Below, in pieces: positions 386 through 11,414 of a DNA stretch of 64,000 nt; position 1 is the stretch's first letter; every line of letters begins with the position of its first letter. Position numbers and translations under genes: made by a program. The notes under the pieces are model-generated. The model was not told the origin of the DNA. It did not search any database and was given only the letters and a program-made list of their open reading frames with translations. The stretch comes from Spirochaetota bacterium (GTDB lineage Bacteria; Spirochaetota; Spirochaetia; Treponematales; UBA12059), in the NCBI GenBank assembly GCA_022703505.1, contig JAKLDN010000006.1, forward strand, positions 124,001 through 188,000, in the 5' to 3' direction.

Positions 386-883
386 ATGCGAACAGTGAAA
401 CAACGGATCCTGTCCTTCCTCGGGCTCTGGGGCGTCTGGCTCCTCCTCACGGCCCCCTGGAATTCCGAGGAGGCCGCGGCCGGGGCCGTCGTCGCCCTCT
501 TGGTCGCGGCGCTCCCCTTCTCCGCCGCCTCCCCCCTCGGGGACCTGAGGCTGGGCCCCCGGGCCCTGGCGACCCTGGTCGCCTATTTCTTCGTCTTCGC
601 CAAGGCCCTGGTCCTGTCCAACCTGGACGTCGCCTTCCGGGTCCTCCACCCCCGGCTCCCCATCGCCCCGGGGATCGTGAAGGTGAAGACCCGGCTCAAG
701 ACCCCCCTCGGCCGTCTCCTGCTGGCCAACTCCATCACCCTGACCCCCGGGACGATCACGGTGGAGATGCGGGGTGAGGATATCTACGTCCACTGGATCA
801 AGGTGGCGGACTCGGATCCGGAAGGAGCCACCGCCGCCATCGTGGGGGGATTCGAGAAATACCTGGAGGTGATCTGTGGCTGA
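386..883 (+). CDS. mrpE: Mrp/Mbx antiporter subunit E (MrpE/MbhA-like)
   Basis: A 165-residue membrane protein of the MnhE/MrpE family. Two hydrophobic segments near the N-terminus (about 10-60) and one around 70-90 are followed by a soluble tail containing the family signature NSITLTPGT (about 119-127) and a conserved IYVHWI stretch. In Mrp antiporters and in the Mrp module of membrane-bound hydrogenase/sulfane reductase, this subunit is part of the Na+/H+ translocating block. It is the first gene of a tightly packed operon and overlaps the next gene by 8 nt. The ATG has a GGAGGG site 6 nt upstream. Confidence 0.9.
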   Translation: MRTVKQRILSFLGLWGVWLLLTAPWNSEEAAAGAVVALLVAALPFSAASPLGDLRLGPRALATLVAYFFVFAKALVLSNLDVAFRVLHPRLPIAPGIVKVKTRLKTPLGRLLLANSITLTPGTITVEMRGEDIYVHWIKVADSDPEGATAAIVGGFEKYLEVICG

Positions 884-1136
884 CACCGTCTTCGCGGCGG
901 CTTCCGGGCTCGCCGTCCTGGGCCTCCTCCTCTCCGCCGTCCGCTTCGCCCGGGGGCCCTGGGCGATCGACCGGACCGTGGCCCTGGACGTGATGACCAT
1001 CATCGCCACGTCCTTGATCGTCGCCTTCGCCGTTTTCTCCGGAAGGAGGATCTACGTGGACGTGGGGATGGTCTACGGACTCGTGGGATTCGCGGGGGTC
1101 GTGGCCGTCGCCCGGTACCTGGAAGGGGGGCTCTGA
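876..1136 (+). CDS. mrpF: Mrp/Mbx antiporter subunit F (MrpF/MbhB-like)
   Basis: An 86-residue protein with three transmembrane helices, typical length for MrpF. The conserved region around RFARGPWAIDRTVALDV (about 24-40) matches the R-GP---DR---D pattern of the family. It starts with GTG inside the end of the preceding gene (8-nt overlap), which implies translational coupling. It is expected to sit with subunits E and G in the ion-translocating Mrp module of the complex. Confidence 0.88.
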   Translation: MADTVFAAASGLAVLGLLLSAVRFARGPWAIDRTVALDVMTIIATSLIVAFAVFSGRRIYVDVGMVYGLVGFAGVVAVARYLEGGL

Positions 1137-1137
1137 G

Positions 1138-1482
1138 ATGAACGAGACCATCGGGGCTTTCGTGAGCCTTGCCGGCTCCCTCTTCTTCCTCCTTTCGGCC
1201 ATCGGCCTCCTGCGGATGCCCGACGCCTTCAACCGGATGCAGGCGGGCACCAAGGCGACCACCCTGGGTTCCATCCTCTTCCTCCTGGGCGTCGGCATCA
1301 TGAAGCCGGACTGGCTGGGAAGAATGATCATCCTGATCGTGTTCATCGTCCTCACGAACCCGGTCAGCTCCAACGCCCTGGCCCGGGCGGCCCACGCCCA
1401 TCGGAAGCGGATCGGAGCCCGGCTGGAACCGGACGCCCTCGCGGCCGCGGACGAGGGGAAGGAGGCCGGACATGCTGGTTGA
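1138..1482 (+). CDS. mrpG: Mrp/Mbx antiporter subunit G (MrpG/MbhC-like)
   Basis: 114 residues with three hydrophobic helices. The family signature LLRMPDAFNRMQAGTKATTLG (about 24-44) is intact: MrpG proteins have R-PD-Y-R-HA-TK--T-G here. It starts one base after the mrpF stop and overlaps the following gene by 11 nt. The C-terminal 30 residues are charged and probably cytoplasmic. Confidence 0.9.
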   Translation: MNETIGAFVSLAGSLFFLLSAIGLLRMPDAFNRMQAGTKATTLGSILFLLGVGIMKPDWLGRMIILIVFIVLTNPVSSNALARAAHAHRKRIGARLEPDALAAADEGKEAGHAG

Positions 1483-1762
1483 CGCCGCCATCCTGGTTTC
1501 CGGCTTCGTCATGATCGCCGCGGGGATCGGGGCCGTCCTGGCCCGGAGCCTCCTGGTATCCATCCTCCTGTCCGGAGGGGTGAGCCTCGTGGCCAGCCTC
1601 GTGTTCCTCCTCATGGGGGCCCCGGACGTCGCCATGACCGAGGCCGCCATCGGGTCCGGGCTGACCACCGTGGTCTACCTCTACGCGATGGCCCGGGCCC
1701 GACAGCCCGACGAGGAGGACGCGGATCCCCTCGGGGATGCCGTGAAGGGAGGCCGTCGATGA
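1472..1762 (+). CDS. MbhD/MbxD-like membrane subunit (DUF4040 type)
   Basis: A 96-residue protein with three hydrophobic helices and the motif GAPDVAMTEAAIGSGLTTVVYL (residues about 49-70). This motif is diagnostic of the MbhD region and of the corresponding part of MrpA. The glutamate in MTEAAIG is the conserved acidic residue of the ion path in this family. It overlaps both neighbours (11 nt and 4 nt). Its presence as a stand-alone gene is the arrangement seen in Mbh/Mbx clusters, rather than fused into a large MrpA. Confidence 0.85.
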   Translation: MLVDAAILVSGFVMIAAGIGAVLARSLLVSILLSGGVSLVASLVFLLMGAPDVAMTEAAIGSGLTTVVYLYAMARARQPDEEDADPLGDAVKGGRR

Positions 1763-2460
1763 TGCGCCGTGTCCTGGTGTTCCTGGCCGTCGCCGGTCTG
1801 GCCGCGGCCCTCCTGCCCCTGGCCTTGGGGACGGGGGTCCCCGAGGCCCCCGGCGCCCTGGCGACCGCCTACCTGGAGGACGCGCCTGGGGACTTCGGGG
1901 CCGCCAACGTCGTGACGGCCATCGTGGTGAGCTACCGGGGCTTCGACACCCTGGGCGAGGTGGCGGTCCTCTTCGCGGCCACCGCCGGGGTGGGCGCCCT
2001 CCTCACCCGGAAGCGCCTGGGCATCGGGGACGCGGAGCCCGCGGACAAACCCGCGGCCACGGAGATCCTGGTCACCGCCACGGGGCTCCTCACGGGCCTC
2101 CTGGTGATGTTCGGGGTCTACATATTCCTGCACGGCCACCTCACTCCCGGCGGCGGGTTCCAGGGCGGCGTGGTGATCGCCACGGCCCTTCTGCTCGGAC
2201 TCCTGGCCCGGCCGGAATCCAAACTCTCCCACGGGATCCTGTCGGCGGTGGAGTCCCTGTCCGGAGCCGCCTACGTGGGCATGGGCCTGGCGGGCGCCTT
2301 CCTGGCCTGGGGTTTCCTGGACCCCCGGGTCCTGCCCCTGGGCCGGATCGGATCCCTGGTCAGCGCCGGATCCATCCCGGTCATCTACTCCCTGATCGGC
2401 CTCAAGGTCGGCGCCGAGCTCTCCGGAATCCTCGACGCCTTGAAAGGAGACCGCGAATGA
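1759..2460 (+). CDS. MbhE-MbhF (MrpB-like) fused subunit
   Basis: 233 residues combining two subunits that are separate in the Pyrococcus membrane-bound hydrogenase. Residues about 1-95 are MbhE-like, with a conserved N-V-T-IVV-YRG-DTLGE segment around 52-72. Residues about 100-233 are MbhF/MrpB-like, with the hallmark GHLTPGGGFQGG around 128-139. About six or seven transmembrane helices. The ATG overlaps the previous stop as ATGA. The paired GGGFQGG glycine cluster places it firmly in the Mrp module. Confidence 0.88.
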   Translation: MMRRVLVFLAVAGLAAALLPLALGTGVPEAPGALATAYLEDAPGDFGAANVVTAIVVSYRGFDTLGEVAVLFAATAGVGALLTRKRLGIGDAEPADKPAATEILVTATGLLTGLLVMFGVYIFLHGHLTPGGGFQGGVVIATALLLGLLARPESKLSHGILSAVESLSGAAYVGMGLAGAFLAWGFLDPRVLPLGRIGSLVSAGSIPVIYSLIGLKVGAELSGILDALKGDRE

Positions 2461-2837
2461 GCATCCTGGAATTCGTCTCCCGGATCAACCCCGTGGCGGC
2501 CTCCGGGGCCGTCCTGGTGCTGGTGGGCGTCTGGGGCGTCCTGGCCCGGCCGAACCTCTTCAAGATCGCCATCGCGACCTCCGTGCTGGAGACCGGCGTG
2601 AACCTGGTCATCCTCTCAACCGGCTACATCCGGGGCCGCACGGCGCCCATCCTGGACAGCGCAGCGGACGCCTCGACGGCCGCGGCCCGGATGACGGACC
2701 CCGTGCCCCAGGCCCTGGTCCTCACGGCGATCGTCATCGGTCTGGCGGTCACGGCCCTCCAGCTCTCCTACGCCGTGCGGCTCCGGGCCGCCGGGGGGGG
2801 CTCCTCCATCGAATCCTACGGAGACGAGAAATGGTGA
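2457..2837 (+). CDS. mrpC: MrpC/NuoK-like subunit (MbhG-like)
   Basis: 126 residues with three predicted helices. The segment WGVLARPNLFKIAIATSVLETGVNLVIL corresponds to the NuoK/MrpC signature G------RN-----I--E---N (about 25-53, quoted here in part). The glutamate in the second helix (about 45) is the conserved proton-path residue of the family. It overlaps the preceding stop by 4 nt and the following gene by 7 nt. In Mbh/Mbx complexes this subunit links the antiporter subunits to the rest of the Mrp block. Confidence 0.87.
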   Translation: MSILEFVSRINPVAASGAVLVLVGVWGVLARPNLFKIAIATSVLETGVNLVILSTGYIRGRTAPILDSAADASTAAARMTDPVPQALVLTAIVIGLAVTALQLSYAVRLRAAGGGSSIESYGDEKW

Positions 2838-5800: not shown

Positions 5801-5920
5801 ACCGGGGCCGCCTCCGTCGGGGGAGCCCTGCGGCGCCTGTATACCGGAAACGGCCAGACCTACGCCCTCCACGTAGTGCTGTACGTGGCGGTCCTCTATC
5901 TCCTCCTGGGGGTCCTGTGA
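2831..5920 (+). CDS. Fused double antiporter subunit (MbxH'-MbxH-like)
   Basis: 1029 residues, twice the usual length of a NuoL/M/N or MrpD protein. Two complete antiporter repeats are visible. Repeat 1 (about 1-425) keeps E136, K218, K339 and K385. Repeat 2 (about 435-900) keeps E566, K630, K661, K750 and K805. These match the TM5 glutamate and the TM7, TM8, TM10 and TM12 lysines of complex-I pumps. Residues about 930-1029 form a charged helix plus a final membrane helix with NGQTYAL, like the lateral helix tail of NuoL or MbhI. Both repeats therefore look active. MBX-type complexes differ from MBH in having two such subunits; here they are one polypeptide. It overlaps its upstream neighbour by 7 nt. 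Confidence 0.88.
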   Translation: MVNPLWLFALSLGAAFLLPLVDRLGRRIALALVHGVTAAWLAAGIFWLSILLSGGEAMDFGTAGFMAPLAIVLRVGLAEAAGVTAVALTGLLAASSLTRSLRDAPLGGSMALLMVLMGLSGIVLTRDLFNLFVFLEISAIGTYGFLGFDDRKPALRAAFKYMIAGGLASSLYLIGVIYVYRLADTLNLDIAASGTALSGPAGTAAVFFLLAALLVELKPFPANGWAVDAYETAHPGVSAILSGASATALLLALWKILPLLGPAHLSLVAASGLATFAAGNLVGARQDRPLRMLGYSSVAQVGLVAAVAALARLSGLGDGGSDFAAMVAGGLLLNHLLAKTGLFLLAGAVEDDRARGPLSPLALAAAGILSAALVGLPPFPGFWAKWRLVRALADSGRWWILALVLGGSLLEAFYVFRWLGARTKGEAGEAPVRLGIRGAGPVLAALLLVAAGTLGGIRGPVPDLLLWAPWAAAAVLFLLDGIPGRLKGILSAAAAAAFGAAVWGRLDGLGQFFAVMLLGGGALFSIAALRKGGARRGLYPLLSAATLALGAILAARTPLEFFFAWETMTAASWLLVLRGRDGRKPALSYIVFGLGGAFLLMAGLAAGGWDGGTAAAGWPGLLVLAGLLVKAGALGVHVWLPGSYAESDDESSGFLSAALSKAPVFALFALALSLGAALPGGPWTSRVLGWLGLATALGGALYAVYQEDIKRTLAYSSLGQIGYILLAFAAMDQAGWTTSLYLALNHFLYKSMLFLAVAGVIQRTGTRNMYEMGGLIKKMPVSFLSVLMAIIALSGVPPLSGFGGKWLLYSTLIGKGWYLEAAVAFFASGVAFLYLYRLIHSIFLGQPKPSQSEVREAPAALVLPQLLLMAVLMAVSVFPRLMLDPILALVGDRFPTTLAFEGSRLRSALGYWDGTLTMVVTGGVFALCLAWMLANLHNPQSVRQFNIVFAAERPLRPETTHYAWRFFEPYRKALGFLTRERAERFWDAFGTGAASVGGALRRLYTGNGQTYALHVVLYVAVLYLLLGVL

Positions 5921-6834
5921 TGGAAACCGGAATCCTAGTCCGCGTCGGGTACGCCCTGGTCTCCCTGTTCGTCATCACGAACTACGGCCTCCTCTTGATC
6001 GGGTCGATGGCCCGGATCAGCGCCAAGGTCCAGGGGCGCGTGGGCCAGCCCGTGTGGCAGCCCTACATCGACATCGTGAAGAGCACGGCCAAGCGGAACT
6101 CCATCGGCCACGGGGTGATGTTCTACCTGGGTCCCGTCTTCCGCCTGGCCGGGGGGGTGGGCACGTACATGTTCATCCCCGCGGTCTACGGCTCGGTCCT
6201 CTTCCGGAACTTCTCGGACTCCGGGGACCTGCTCCTCGTGATGTACTTCATCTTCTTCGGCCAGCTGGGCATGGCCCTGGGGGCCAGCGAGGGGGGACAT
6301 CCCTACTCCGCCATCGGCGTGAGCCGGGGGCTGGCCCAGATGACCGCCTTCGAGGTGCCCTTCGCCCTGTCCGTGATCGCCGTGGCGATCCAGTACCGGA
6401 CCCTGGACATCACGGCCATCGTGGCCGCCCAGCAGGGGGGCTTCTGGAACTGGACGGTCGCGACGAACCCCCTGGCGGTAGCCGCCGCCCTGATCGCCTT
6501 CCTGGGCATGTCCATGCACAACCCCTTCAGCATCGTCATCGCCCCCCAGGAGATCCCCATCGGCCCGCCCACGGAGTACCAGAGCAACCTCCTGGGGATG
6601 CTCCAGACGAACCGGGCCATCTTCAACGGGGCCAAGCTCGTCCTGTACATGAACCTCTACTTCGGGGGCGCGACGGACGTCGTGACCATGGTGGTGAAGA
6701 CCTTCCTCATCTACTTCATCAACGTGTTCGTCGGACAGGCCTTCCCCCGGTTCCGGGTCGACCAGTCGATCCGGTTCTTCCTGGGCGTGCCCACCCTGAT
6801 CGGCATTGCCTCGGTCATCATCGCGGCGATATAG
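5920..6834 (+). CDS. NuoH/MbhM-like membrane subunit
   Basis: 304 residues with about eight transmembrane helices, homologous to NuoH, HycD and MbhM. This subunit anchors the soluble arm and links redox chemistry to the membrane pumps. The acidic cytoplasmic loop ASEGGHPYSAIGVSRGLAQM and E-F-PFALS region (about 125-150) and IAPQEIPIGPPTEYQSN (about 206-222) are the family's conserved loops. The ATG at 5920 shares one base with the previous stop; a GTG one codon earlier is possible. An AGGAGG site for the next gene overlaps its own stop. Confidence 0.9.
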   Translation: METGILVRVGYALVSLFVITNYGLLLIGSMARISAKVQGRVGQPVWQPYIDIVKSTAKRNSIGHGVMFYLGPVFRLAGGVGTYMFIPAVYGSVLFRNFSDSGDLLLVMYFIFFGQLGMALGASEGGHPYSAIGVSRGLAQMTAFEVPFALSVIAVAIQYRTLDITAIVAAQQGGFWNWTVATNPLAVAAALIAFLGMSMHNPFSIVIAPQEIPIGPPTEYQSNLLGMLQTNRAIFNGAKLVLYMNLYFGGATDVVTMVVKTFLIYFINVFVGQAFPRFRVDQSIRFFLGVPTLIGIASVIIAAI

Positions 6835-6844
6835 GAGGCCGACC

Positions 6845-7474
6845 GTGTCCGACAAGAAAGGCAAGCCGGTTCCCCTGGCCAACGAGGGCCTGCCCCCCGG
6901 AGAGCGGGGGCTGTTCTGCGACGCGCCCCCCCGGGAGTACGCCCCGGCCGCGAAGATCGTGGAGGATTTCTGGAACTGGGCCCGGTCCCAGAGCCTGTGG
7001 ATCCTGGGCTTCGGAACGGGCTGCGGGGCCATCGAACTGCGCCCCCTCATGACAAGCCGCTACGACATGTACCGGTTCGGCATCCAGCCCCGGCCGACGC
7101 CGCGGCAGTCCTCGGTCTTCGTGATCGGAGGCTACGCCTCCGTGAAGACCCTGAAGCGCATCGTCCGCAGCTACGAGCAGATGATGGGCCCGAAGTTCGT
7201 CGTGGCCCTGGGATCCTGCACCATCAACGGCGGGATGTACTGGGACAGCTATAACACCATCAAGCGGATCGACCAGTACATCCCCGTGGACGTCTACATC
7301 GCGGGCTGCATGCCCCGGCCCGAGGCCCTGCTGGCGGGCTTCCAGGAGCTCAAGCGGATCATCCGCGCCGGGAAGGCGGAGGGACAGAACCTCTACGCCC
7401 GTGACTTCGAGCGGTACAAGGCCAACCAGAAGCGGGTCATCAAGGACTGGAACATGCCGGACTACAACTGGTAG
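6845..7474 (+). CDS. NuoB/MbhJ/MbxJ-like Fe-S subunit with three cluster cysteines
   Basis: 209 residues. The GTG at 6845 is chosen because AGGAGG (6833-6838) lies 6 nt upstream. The start at 6806 would overlap the previous gene. It aligns with NuoB, whose N2 cluster is held by CC-x64-C-x28-C. Here the tandem pair reads G59-C60, followed by C125 (GSCTINGG) and C155 (AGCMPRP). Spacing is right but one ligand is missing, leaving three. From memory, the Pyrococcus MBS (sulfane reductase) proximal cluster also has an open iron site. C25 is an unlikely substitute given its position. I infer a cluster open to substrate. Confidence 0.88.
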   Translation: MSDKKGKPVPLANEGLPPGERGLFCDAPPREYAPAAKIVEDFWNWARSQSLWILGFGTGCGAIELRPLMTSRYDMYRFGIQPRPTPRQSSVFVIGGYASVKTLKRIVRSYEQMMGPKFVVALGSCTINGGMYWDSYNTIKRIDQYIPVDVYIAGCMPRPEALLAGFQELKRIIRAGKAEGQNLYARDFERYKANQKRVIKDWNMPDYNW

Positions 7475-7483
7475 GGGGGAAGG

Positions 7484-8017
7484 ATGCGTGAACTGGCGGA
7501 TATGCTTTCCGGCCGCTACGGCGCCCGGGAATGGCACGACCAGCGGAAGGACCTCTCCTCCGTGACCGTGGACGCCTCGAAGCTTCGGGACGTCCTCACC
7601 TGGCTCCGGGACGAGGCGGGCTACGCCCACCTGGCCTTCGCGACCGCGGTGGACGAGATCGAGCGGAAGGTCTTCCGGCTGACCTACACGGTGCACAATT
7701 ACGGCACGGCCCACGGGATCCTGGTCCACTGCGAGATCGACCGGGACCGGCCCGTGATGGAATCCATCCATCGGCTCTGGGGGCAAGCCTGGACCTACCA
7801 GCGGGAGATGAGGGAGTGGTACGGGATCGACTTCCCCGGCAGCCCCCGGGTGGACGAGGAGTTCGTCCTGGAAGGCTGGGAGGGGCCGCCCATGATGCGG
7901 AGGGACTTCGATTCCCTGGCCTACAGCGACGCCACCTACGCGGAGCGGCCCGGCCGCGAGACCCGGGACCCCGCGGCGTACATGAAGGAAAAGCTCTACC
8001 CGGAGGCCGACGCATGA
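7484..8017 (+). CDS. NuoC/MbhK-like subunit
   Basis: 177 residues of the 30-kDa subunit family of complex I and group-4 hydrogenases. The signature QREMREWYGIDFPGSPR (about 106-122) matches the family pattern ER---E--G--F-GHP. It has no cofactor ligands. It bridges the NuoB- and NuoD-like subunits. It is preceded by a GGGGGGAAGG ribosome site and overlaps the NuoD-like gene by 4 nt (ATGA). NuoC and NuoD are separate genes here, as in Mbh/Mbx, not fused as in E. coli. Confidence 0.88.
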   Translation: MRELADMLSGRYGAREWHDQRKDLSSVTVDASKLRDVLTWLRDEAGYAHLAFATAVDEIERKVFRLTYTVHNYGTAHGILVHCEIDRDRPVMESIHRLWGQAWTYQREMREWYGIDFPGSPRVDEEFVLEGWEGPPMMRRDFDSLAYSDATYAERPGRETRDPAAYMKEKLYPEADA

Positions 8018-9181: not shown

Positions 9182-10957
9182 ATGGATATCAAGGACATCA
9201 TAGCCCCCTTCGCCGTCTGGAAGCGCGCCTTCGAGAAGCCCTTCACGGTCCGCAAGCCCATCGACGAGCGTCCCGGCGCGCCCCGGTACCGGGGCTTCCA
9301 CATCAACGACGCGGACACGTGCGTGGGCTGCGGCACCTGCGAGAGCATATGCATGAACAAGGCCATCGACCTGGTGCCCGTGGAGGGACGATCGCCCTCC
9401 GGCGGGGATTCCGGCCTCCGGCCCCGGGTGGACTACGGCCGCTGCTGCTGGTGCGCCCTCTGCGTGGACATCTGCCCCTCGGGCTCCCTGGGGATGAGCA
9501 ACGAATACCTGTGGATCGACTCGGATCCGGAGGTCTTCCGCTACGTGCCCGGGGTGGATCCCAAACCCTGGGACGGCGCAGAGCTCGGGTACCGCCGCGC
9601 CGAGGGCTACCGGCTCCTGGACATGGAGCGGGTCCCCATGCCGGAACTAAGTCACGCCGAGGGGGTGAAGTCCTTCCTGGAGCTCGTGAAGGGCTATTCC
9701 CGGGAGCAAGCCGAGCGGGAGGCGGACCGCTGCGTGGCCTGCGGAGTCTGCGTGGCCTCCTGCCCGGCCCACATGGACATCCCCGGCTACATAAACGCGG
9801 TCCGGGGCGGCGACCTTGAGACGGGGCTGCGCCTCCTGTACGAGACCAACCCCTTCCCCGAGGCCTGCGGCCGGATCTGCACCCGGGCCTGCGAGTCCGC
9901 CTGCGCGATCGGCTCCGGGGGCGACCCCGTGGCCATCCGCTGGCTCAAGCGCTACATCGCGGACCAGGTGGAACTGGCCGACTACGGCAAGTCCCTTCCC
10001 CGGGCGGAGAGCGCCACGGGCCGAAAGGTCGCCGTGGTCGGCGCCGGCCCCGGCGGACTTTCCGCTGCCTACTACCTGGCGCTTTTGGGCCACAAGGTCA
10101 CGGTCTTCGAGAAGGACGAGGCGCCGGGCGGGATGCTCCGGTACGGGATCCCGGAATACCGCCTGCCCTACCCCGCCCTGGACAAGGACGTGGACTACAT
10201 CCGGAGCCTGGGCGTGGAGATCCGCCACGGAGCGACGGTCGGGAAGGATCCGGCCCTGGCGAAGCTCCGGGAGGATTTCGACGCGGTCTACCTCTCCACG
10301 GGCCTGCCCTCGGCGTACCGCCTGGACGTGCCCGGGGACGAGCACCCCCGGGTCCTGGACGGGGTGGCCGTCCTGGCAGCCGCCACCCGGGGCGAGGAGC
10401 TCGGACTGGGCCGGCGGGTGGCCGTGGTCGGGGGCGGCAACGTGGCTATGGACGCCGCCCGGACCGCCCTGCGCCGGGGCTGCGAGGTGGACATCGTCTA
10501 CCGCCGCCGCCAGGTCGACATGCCCGCGGACCCCGAGGAGATCCGGGAAGCCAAGGCCGAGGGCGCCCGCCTTATCGAGCGGGCCATCCCCCTGCGGGTG
10601 GAGGACTCCGGGGACGGAGGGGCCCGCTTCGTGTGGAACGAGGCCGAGATGGTCCAGAAGGAGCCGGGCAAGCGCCCCGTGCCGGAACCCATCCCCGGGG
10701 CGGTCGTCACCGAGCGCTACGACTCCATCATCGCGGCCATCGGCCAGGGCCCCGAACTGTCGTACATCACGGAGGCGGACGGCGTGGAGGTCCGCCGCAT
10801 GAAGCCCGTCACGGACCGGACCGGCCGGACGAGCGTCCCGACGGTCTTCGCGGGCGGCGACCTGGTGAACGAAAAGAAGGACGCCATCTCCGCCATCGCG
10901 GACGGCCACCGCGCGGCCCGGGCCATCGACCGCATCCTGGGCGGGAGGGGGGACTGA
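9182..10957 (+). CDS. NuoI/MbxN-like ferredoxin subunit fused to a GltD/NfnL-type flavoprotein
   Basis: 591 residues in two parts. Residues 1-115 are a two-cluster ferredoxin subunit (C47-C50-C53-C57 and C88-C91-C94-C98). Residues about 150-591 are a GltD/NfnL-type oxidoreductase with an N-terminal Fe-S domain (C184, C187, C190, C194; C229, C233, C237, C241), an FAD Rossmann motif GAGPGG (287-292) and an NAD(P) motif GGGNVAMDAA (417-426). A YRRRQVDMPA loop follows, suggesting NADPH. GltD-type proteins pass electrons between NAD(P)H, flavin and Fe-S clusters. Fused to the clusters of the membrane complex, it should feed or withdraw NAD(P)H electrons. It lies 4 nt after the NuoD-like gene. Confidence 0.9.
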   Translation: MDIKDIIAPFAVWKRAFEKPFTVRKPIDERPGAPRYRGFHINDADTCVGCGTCESICMNKAIDLVPVEGRSPSGGDSGLRPRVDYGRCCWCALCVDICPSGSLGMSNEYLWIDSDPEVFRYVPGVDPKPWDGAELGYRRAEGYRLLDMERVPMPELSHAEGVKSFLELVKGYSREQAEREADRCVACGVCVASCPAHMDIPGYINAVRGGDLETGLRLLYETNPFPEACGRICTRACESACAIGSGGDPVAIRWLKRYIADQVELADYGKSLPRAESATGRKVAVVGAGPGGLSAAYYLALLGHKVTVFEKDEAPGGMLRYGIPEYRLPYPALDKDVDYIRSLGVEIRHGATVGKDPALAKLREDFDAVYLSTGLPSAYRLDVPGDEHPRVLDGVAVLAAATRGEELGLGRRVAVVGGGNVAMDAARTALRRGCEVDIVYRRRQVDMPADPEEIREAKAEGARLIERAIPLRVEDSGDGGARFVWNEAEMVQKEPGKRPVPEPIPGAVVTERYDSIIAAIGQGPELSYITEADGVEVRRMKPVTDRTGRTSVPTVFAGGDLVNEKKDAISAIADGHRAARAIDRILGGRGD

Positions 10958-10958
10958 C

Positions 10959-11414
10959 ATGGGATACGCCACGTTCGGGGAGGTTCTCGAGTTCGCCATC
11001 GGCCGGGAGAACGCGGCCGTGGACTTCTACCGGGAGCTGTCCGGCATCGCGGCCTTCGCGGCCCAGAAGTCCACCCTGGCGGAGTTCATCGCCATGGAGA
11101 GAGGCCACGCGGCCATGCTGGAGGCGATGAAGGCCCGCGGGACGGTCAAGCTCTCCGCCTCCACGGCGGTGGACCTGGGCGCGGCGCGGCGAGTCGAGGC
11201 GACGGACCGCCCCCCCGCGGGCATGACCTTCCAGGACATCCTGACCGCGGCGGCTTCCAAGGAGGCCCGGAGCTTCGAACTCTACGGCCGGCTGGCCCGG
11301 GAGGCCGGGGATCCCGGGATCCGGGAGACCTTCGAACGCCTGGCCGGGGAGGAATCCCGTCATCGGGCCTACTTCCAGGACCTCTACGAGCGGGAGGTCG
11401 CCCGGGACAACTGA
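10959..11414 (+). CDS. Ferritin-like/rubrerythrin-type di-iron protein
   Basis: 151 residues forming a four-helix bundle. Likely di-iron ligands are E17, E47 with H50 (MERGH), E102 and E131/E132 with H135 (EESRH). There is no C-terminal rubredoxin domain, so it is shorter than classical rubrerythrin. Such proteins reduce peroxide or store iron. It starts one base after the flavoprotein stop, so it is the last gene of the mbx operon. I infer protection of the oxygen-sensitive Fe-S complex or a role in iron/peroxide handling. The specific reaction cannot be read from sequence. Confidence 0.75.
   Translation: MGYATFGEVLEFAIGRENAAVDFYRELSGIAAFAAQKSTLAEFIAMERGHAAMLEAMKARGTVKLSASTAVDLGAARRVEATDRPPAGMTFQDILTAAASKEARSFELYGRLAREAGDPGIRETFERLAGEESRHRAYFQDLYEREVARDN

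Follow-up and report, generated by a model that had tools for sequence, protein, structure and literature searches.

The stretch of DNA analysed here, 64,000 nucleotides from a Spirochaetota bacterium (the window), contains an operon for a complex of the MBS kind; it is a variant that carries a nicotinamide module, not a categorically new system. The N subunit of this complex is not a plain ferredoxin protein: a GltD/NfnL-type flavoprotein is fused to it. In our opinion, there is an even chance that the complex works as an ion-pumping, NADPH-oxidising MBS-like reductase, whose MbsN subunit is extended by a non-bifurcating module of the GltD/StnC type and whose acceptor is of the sulfane type. 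The architecture is already catalogued (PRK13984) and widespread, and the fused subunit is one for which no explaining paper was found in the open-access literature.

The fused subunit and its operon

The features of the operon are collected in Table 1. Upstream of the fused gene, eleven genes follow one another in the gapless order MrpE, F, G, DUF4040, B, C, antiporter fusion, NuoH, NuoB, NuoC and NuoD.

Table 1. Genes of the operon and parts of the fused subunit (positions in the window)
Feature	Position	Strand	Evidence
MrpE-like subunit (MbsA)	386..883	+	TIGR00942 (NCBIfam) 2e-29; same place in loci with enough flank
MrpF-like subunit (MbsB)	876..1136	+	ORF; order conserved in related loci
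MrpG-like subunit (MbsC)	1138..1482	+	ORF; order conserved
DUF4040-type subunit (MbsD)	1472..1762	+	ORF; order conserved; family named by position and MrpB resemblance
MrpB-like subunit	1759..2460	+	PRK12567 (NCBIfam) 4e-50
MrpC-like subunit (MbsG)	2457..2837	+	PRK09094 (NCBIfam) 2e-21
MbsH and MbsH' antiporter subunits, fused, 1029 aa	2831..5920	+	Proton_antipo_M, two stretches
NuoH-like membrane anchor (MbsM)	5917..6834	+	PF00146 2e-45
NuoB-like subunit (MbsJ), start codon uncertain; GTGCG site, first cluster Cys 7022-7024	6806..7474	+	PDB match 6u8y_J; three cluster cysteines conserved
NuoC-like subunit (MbsK)	7484..8017	+	PF00329 2e-23
NuoD-like subunit (MbsL), without NiFe or quinone residues	8014..9177	+	PDB match 6u8y_L; residue check
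Fused subunit: MbsN/NuoI ferredoxin domain and GltD/NfnL FAD-NAD(P) module	9182..10957	+	Pfam, NCBIfam and PDB matches, alignment, AlphaFold
Ferredoxin (MbsN-like) part, residues 1-143: two 4-Cys motifs and extra invariant Cys89	9182..9610	+	6u8y_N 89 bits; invariance
GltD Fe-S part, residues 144-280: eight conserved Cys, Lys256 (9947-9949) at NfnB Glu117 position	9611..10021	+	PF14691; alignment
FAD and NAD(P) Rossmann domains, residues 281-589	10022..10948	+	PF07992; NfnL match Z 48
YRR motif, residues 440-442, NADP(H)-type	10499..10507	+	Aligned to NfnB Y310-R311-R312
Rubrerythrin/ferritin-like accessory protein, same operon	10959..11414	+	PF02915 5e-13

The fused gene starts 4 bases past the stop of the nuoD-like gene and encodes 591 amino acids from ATG to stop with no internal stops; the ferritin-like frame begins 1 base past its end. 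Pfam places a ferredoxin dicluster at residues 46-101, the GltD Fe-S domain (Fer4_20) at 163-263 and Pyr_redox_2 at 282-575, and the NCBIfam model PRK13984.1 covers residues 2-586 (585 of 591) on model positions 7-606 with an E-value of 8e-197. The frame and both libraries agree with the earlier reading of a single chain bearing two NuoI-type clusters, a GltD Fe-S domain, FAD and NAD(P) sites.

In sequence, the N-terminal part most resembles MbsN from the Pyrococcus MBS (89 bits, the next match being 57.5), and residues 144-588 superimpose on NfnL with Z 48 and 1.8 Å over 436 residues; the GltD half dominates the fold-search lists, and the N-terminal half was placed by its sequence likeness to MbsN, not by fold. 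The eight conserved cysteines in the GltD part form two cluster motifs, as in NfnL, which gives four [4Fe-4S] motifs in the whole chain. In a full-length alignment with 95 fused homologues, 17 of 17 cysteines are kept wherever the residues are readable. One of them, Cys89 (9446-9448), is an invariant extra cysteine that makes a CC pair within the second ferredoxin motif, GRCCWC, where MbsN has Thr; Cys229 is likewise invariant among the fused homologues where readable.

An assembly artefact or a chance read-through merging two genes is ruled out by the conservation of this architecture: the same join and the same cysteines recur in 95 homologues, a named family model exists, and the AlphaFold model of the chain is continuous and confident (mean pLDDT 87, pTM 0.82).

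That family, NF010590 / PRK13984.1, is catalogued as a 'putative oxidoreductase' of the same full-length architecture with function unassigned. The window protein scores 655 bits against a curated cut-off of 946, that is, below the equivalog level, and it should therefore be regarded as a relative and not as an assigned equivalog. In the control genome of Thermotoga maritima, the family search gave a score above the 946-bit cut-off, and GltD-only proteins reached about 380 bits or less in the same search. Since a GltD-only protein cannot attain 946 bits, T. maritima carries the fused form, and the view in the sequence-only reading that Thermotoga mbx clusters have a separate GltD-like gene, with the window protein as its 'fused form', is probably wrong. 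No paper describing the fused subunit was found in the open-access literature, the accessible portions of the Mbx papers contain no discussion of the fusion, and searches under PRK13984 or the locus names TM1217/TM1216 gave no relevant match.

The join of the antiporter subunits H and H' is a second fusion, common to the whole bacterial group, and nearly all loci have this chain at about 1030-1170 aa; among 48 matched frames of related loci, 46 are open over 900-1167 aa. In 23 of 80 loci, the ferritin-like gene is the neighbour of the fusion gene; in L011, the fused chain itself ends in this protein as a recognisable C-terminal domain, and L010 and L013 have C-terminal extensions of equal length without a Pfam match. 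This protein may protect the complex against oxygen or peroxide. Rfam and tRNA scans of the whole window found nothing, and no sulfur genes were seen adjoining its locus.

Core, nicotinamide site and distribution

The J, L and N subunits are all nearest to those of MBS, ahead of complex I and MBH. The best PDB match of the NuoB-like J subunit is 6u8y_J with 218 bits (next 139), and that of the NuoD-like L subunit is 6u8y_L with 325 bits (complex I 211). At the cluster site, the window has FGTGCGAIEL against FCTGCGGIEM of MbsJ, and GTGCG with two later cysteines was found in 63 of 63 bacterial J sequences tested. The ligands of the MBS proximal cluster, C28, C93 and C123, are kept, and C25 is lost. 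In MBS, C25 is not a cluster ligand and is dispensable, the C25A variant being active, and the three-Cys proximal cluster is the reported catalytic site (PMC7684303). In the NuoD-like subunit, the quinone positions His38 and Tyr87 are altered, as in MBS, and alignment and residue check showed that the NiFe ligand set is missing. With three ligand cysteines kept, the quinone positions changed and the NiFe set gone, the chamber is MBS-like at the sequence level.

The YRR motif of the window protein aligns with Y310-R311-R312 of Thermotoga NfnB. Among DsrL proteins, those that have this motif use NADP(H) and those that lack it prefer NAD(H) (PMC7596348), and by this criterion the window module would use NADP(H). 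Among the 95 fused proteins, 55 have YRRR, and 40 have a six-residue insert and an acidic motif; NAD(H) use is predicted for the acidic-motif clade. This split offers a direct, testable prediction of NADP versus NAD use. The T. maritima copy probably belongs to the acidic-motif sister clade, its motif type and operon place being deduced from the model score and from typed high-scoring copies.

In the tree of the fused proteins, built with the motif columns left out, the two types are the two sides of one branch with support 100. The NuoD tree has the same split except for L097/L101, with a NAD-type module and an NADP-type core, and L078/L080/L081, with the reverse combination, which makes three type changes. 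Distance correlations of NuoD with each half of the fusion are 0.64-0.65. One switch on the first tree versus three on the second means that co-inheritance is strong but not perfect, and suggests that the nicotinamide module was swapped between complexes of both types.

The sequence-only reading had also allowed for electron bifurcation. The FAD would then be the bifurcating site, sending some of the NADPH electrons to the Mbx clusters and the others to a second acceptor, and NfnL is the nearest protein in overall fold (Z 48). However, the window operon encodes no NfnS-like partner, and Glu117 of NfnB, a ligand of the FAD-side cluster, is replaced by Lys256 in the window and by Lys in 95 of 95 fused homologues. 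StnC, in which bifurcation was lost and the FAD is non-bifurcating, also has a Lys at the corresponding cluster (PMC10482914); the printed alignment shows this lysine for the homologue 9bov with an identical residue number. Because of the lysine and the missing partner, bifurcation on the fused chain is considered very improbable.

When 84,980 species genomes were scanned, at least 532 relatives came up, and 80 of the loci were retained. An Mbx-type NuoD-like gene lies upstream of the fusion in all 80 of these other fused loci, the gene order is fixed across them, and all eleven partner genes are present in 42 of the 43 loci having at least 9 kb upstream. The carriers belong to Spirochaetota, Cloacimonadota, Bacteroidota, Chlorobiota, Neomarinimicrobiota, Pseudomonadota, Campylobacterota, Acidobacteriota, Delongbacteria, Fermentibacterota and Aminicenantes; no fewer than 80 of the genomes sampled thus share the fusion, and they are spread over about ten phyla, as counted from record titles and the taxonomy read by the tree tool. 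Among 345 sampled Spirochaetota genomes, 18 have the full-length fusion, and the same 18 have an Mbx-type NuoD (E < 1e-85); the NuoD matches of the five other genomes that have any, at only 1e-61 to 1e-64, are in the range that complex I should give. It may be concluded that the fusion goes together with the Mrp-Mbx genes (80 of 80 loci; 18 of 18 Spirochaetota genomes, in both directions), that no fusion stood without complex genes nearby, and that the idea that the N subunit of such a complex bears a fused nicotinamide module was well founded.

Two loci deserve mention apart. The locus L052 (Thiosymbion) has no Mrp genes upstream and contains ORFs between nuoD and the fusion gene; it was treated as disturbed. 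A 993-aa frame in L115 (Magnetospirillum) was rejected as a NuoD-fusion chain, the NuoD match being to a different overlapping ORF.

Electron donor, direction and acceptor

In related complexes, redox chemistry is coupled to pumping at the proximal cluster and the chamber. In the preferred reading, NADPH would give a hydride to the FAD of the GltD module. From the FAD, electrons would travel one at a time, first over the pair of GltD clusters and then over the pair of N clusters, to reach the proximal cluster of the NuoB-like subunit. This cluster would have an open iron, because it has only three cysteine ligands, and could reduce an acceptor of the sulfane or polysulfide type, the reaction at the NuoB/NuoD/NuoH chamber powering ion pumping by the Mrp part. 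Ferredoxin may be a second donor, entering at the N clusters. We infer a non-bifurcating FAD, NADPH oxidation as the main direction and coupled ion pumping; a sulfane-type acceptor is proposed by analogy with MBS. The transfer of electrons from NADPH to polysulfide yields little energy compared with ferredoxin, which counts against this reading. In T. maritima, mbxA goes up with S0 (PMC9431562).

The host genome (3.66 Mb, 14 contigs; the closest named record is 'Treponema sp.' AS27yjCOA_177, 95% identical) contains one fusion, one Nfn/GltA-like large subunit, YgfK and RnfC-like proteins, as well as five Fe-hydrogenase-domain and six POR matches. Judging by this gene content, the host is an anaerobe with other means of balancing ferredoxin and NADPH. 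A NuoF-GltD fusion in the host lies directly upstream of an [FeFe]-hydrogenase domain gene (L004, L147; G000 contig C9, about 176-181 kb), and this pair is perhaps an NADPH-linked hydrogenase of its own kind.

A host so rich in ferredoxin-reducing enzymes, including the six POR matches, would also suit an ion-pumping ferredoxin:NADP+ oxidoreductase, in which electrons of reduced ferredoxin pass by the N clusters to NADP+ at the FAD. The sequence-only reading had suggested such an enzyme; the intact N clusters and the NADP-type site make it possible, the same role was formerly suggested for the Mbx of P. furiosus, and older papers call Mbx a ferredoxin:NADP oxidoreductase (PMC4596419, PMC3608648). 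However, both substrates would then react on one peripheral chain, bypassing the conserved three-Cys cluster and the chamber, and the archaeal complex, formerly MBX, proved to be a sulfane reductase without an NADP module. This reading is not the best fit, because the MBS-type cluster and chamber would have no role in it and because, in one lineage, the genes nearby suggest that the complex is supplied with newly made NADPH; we regard it as rather unlikely.

In sulfur-oxidiser lineages, pentose-phosphate and glycogen genes adjoin the mrp-mbx operon (L065, L068, L070, L073, L092, L113). The NADP-type gammaproteobacterial loci have G6PDH and 6PGDH (L065, L068), 6PGDH at the contig edge and phosphoglucomutase (L070, L092), phosphoglucomutase (L073), transaldolase (L065) or glycogen phosphorylase (L068), and genes for glycogen phosphorylase and phosphoketolase stand next to the NAD-type locus of Thiothrix. 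These neighbours, among which the genes for NADPH production stand beside NADP-type loci and speak against the ferredoxin:NADP+ route, fit the feeding of the complex with NAD(P)H from stored sugar; the cases come mainly from one gammaproteobacterial clade, and since the NADP-type ones form one clade, they represent few independent events.

Many carriers from sulfur-oxidiser lineages (Thiothrix, Chromatiaceae, Thiosymbion, Sulfurovum) could instead run the complex in reverse in the manner of sulfur-oxidising autotrophs, with an ion gradient pushing electrons taken from sulfide or sulfane sulfur onto NAD(P)+ or onto ferredoxin; the Riftia symbiont co-expresses a putative Mrp-Mbx with rTCA genes (PMC11636981). 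Such a direction seems improbable to us, as the organism of the window is anaerobic and has hydrogenases and POR enzymes, sulfur oxidation is not known for many of the carriers, and the sugar genes next to the operon agree better with oxidation of NAD(P)H.

Returning to the reading with NADPH as donor, a wider picture can be offered tentatively, as possible but somewhat doubtful. The complex would be a widespread quinone-free one that passes electrons of NADPH (one clade) or NADH (the sister clade) to sulfane sulfur with ion pumping; in sulfur-storing gammaproteobacteria it would link glycogen and pentose-phosphate breakdown to the reduction of stored sulfur under anoxia, and its nicotinamide module would have been exchanged between the types. 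If this is true, quinones would be dispensable for NAD(P)H respiration on sulfur in many anaerobes and sulfur bacteria.

Comparison with known systems

MBS, MBH and complex I are held to form one evolutionary series, whose members differ in electron entry and exit. The window complex shares with the MBS of Pyrococcus furiosus (6u8y) the subunit set, the J, L and N sequences, the three proximal-cluster cysteines, the absence of NiFe and quinone residues, and the order in which Mrp-type membrane genes are followed by NuoH-B-C-D-like subunits. The two differ in that MbsN is a plain ferredoxin subunit of 208 aa, whereas the window N carries the GltD/FAD/NADP module, which makes the complex a variant of MBS, and in that H and H', separate in Pyrococcus, are one chain in the window. 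MBH, a group 4 NiFe hydrogenase, has four NiFe cysteines in its large subunit, which are absent here, and complex I has quinone-binding His and Tyr and a four-Cys N2 cluster, neither of which is present in the window complex. The nicotinamide entry grafted onto a ferredoxin subunit would be another answer to the task for which complex I has NuoEFG.

Among flavoproteins, NfnL/NfnB of the Thermotoga and Pyrococcus Nfn resemble the module in fold and in the YRR motif, but they have an NfnS partner and Glu117 in place of Lys256 and are not fused to an MbsN domain. StnC of Sporomusa ovata (8oh5) is similar in that its GltD module is an NADPH entry to an Fe-S chain with a Lys near the FAD-side cluster; unlike the window protein, it feeds a soluble bifurcating FMN module and not a membrane pump, and its homologue 9bov has no Cys aligned to the invariant Cys229. 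DsrL also has a GltD-type module in NADP (YRR) and NAD types and a role in sulfur metabolism, but its partners are DsrAB, its ferredoxin domain is at the opposite end, and it works outside any ion pump. Within PRK13984 itself, the window protein stands in the YRR (NADP) clade, whereas the typed copies with higher scores fall in the acidic-motif clade.
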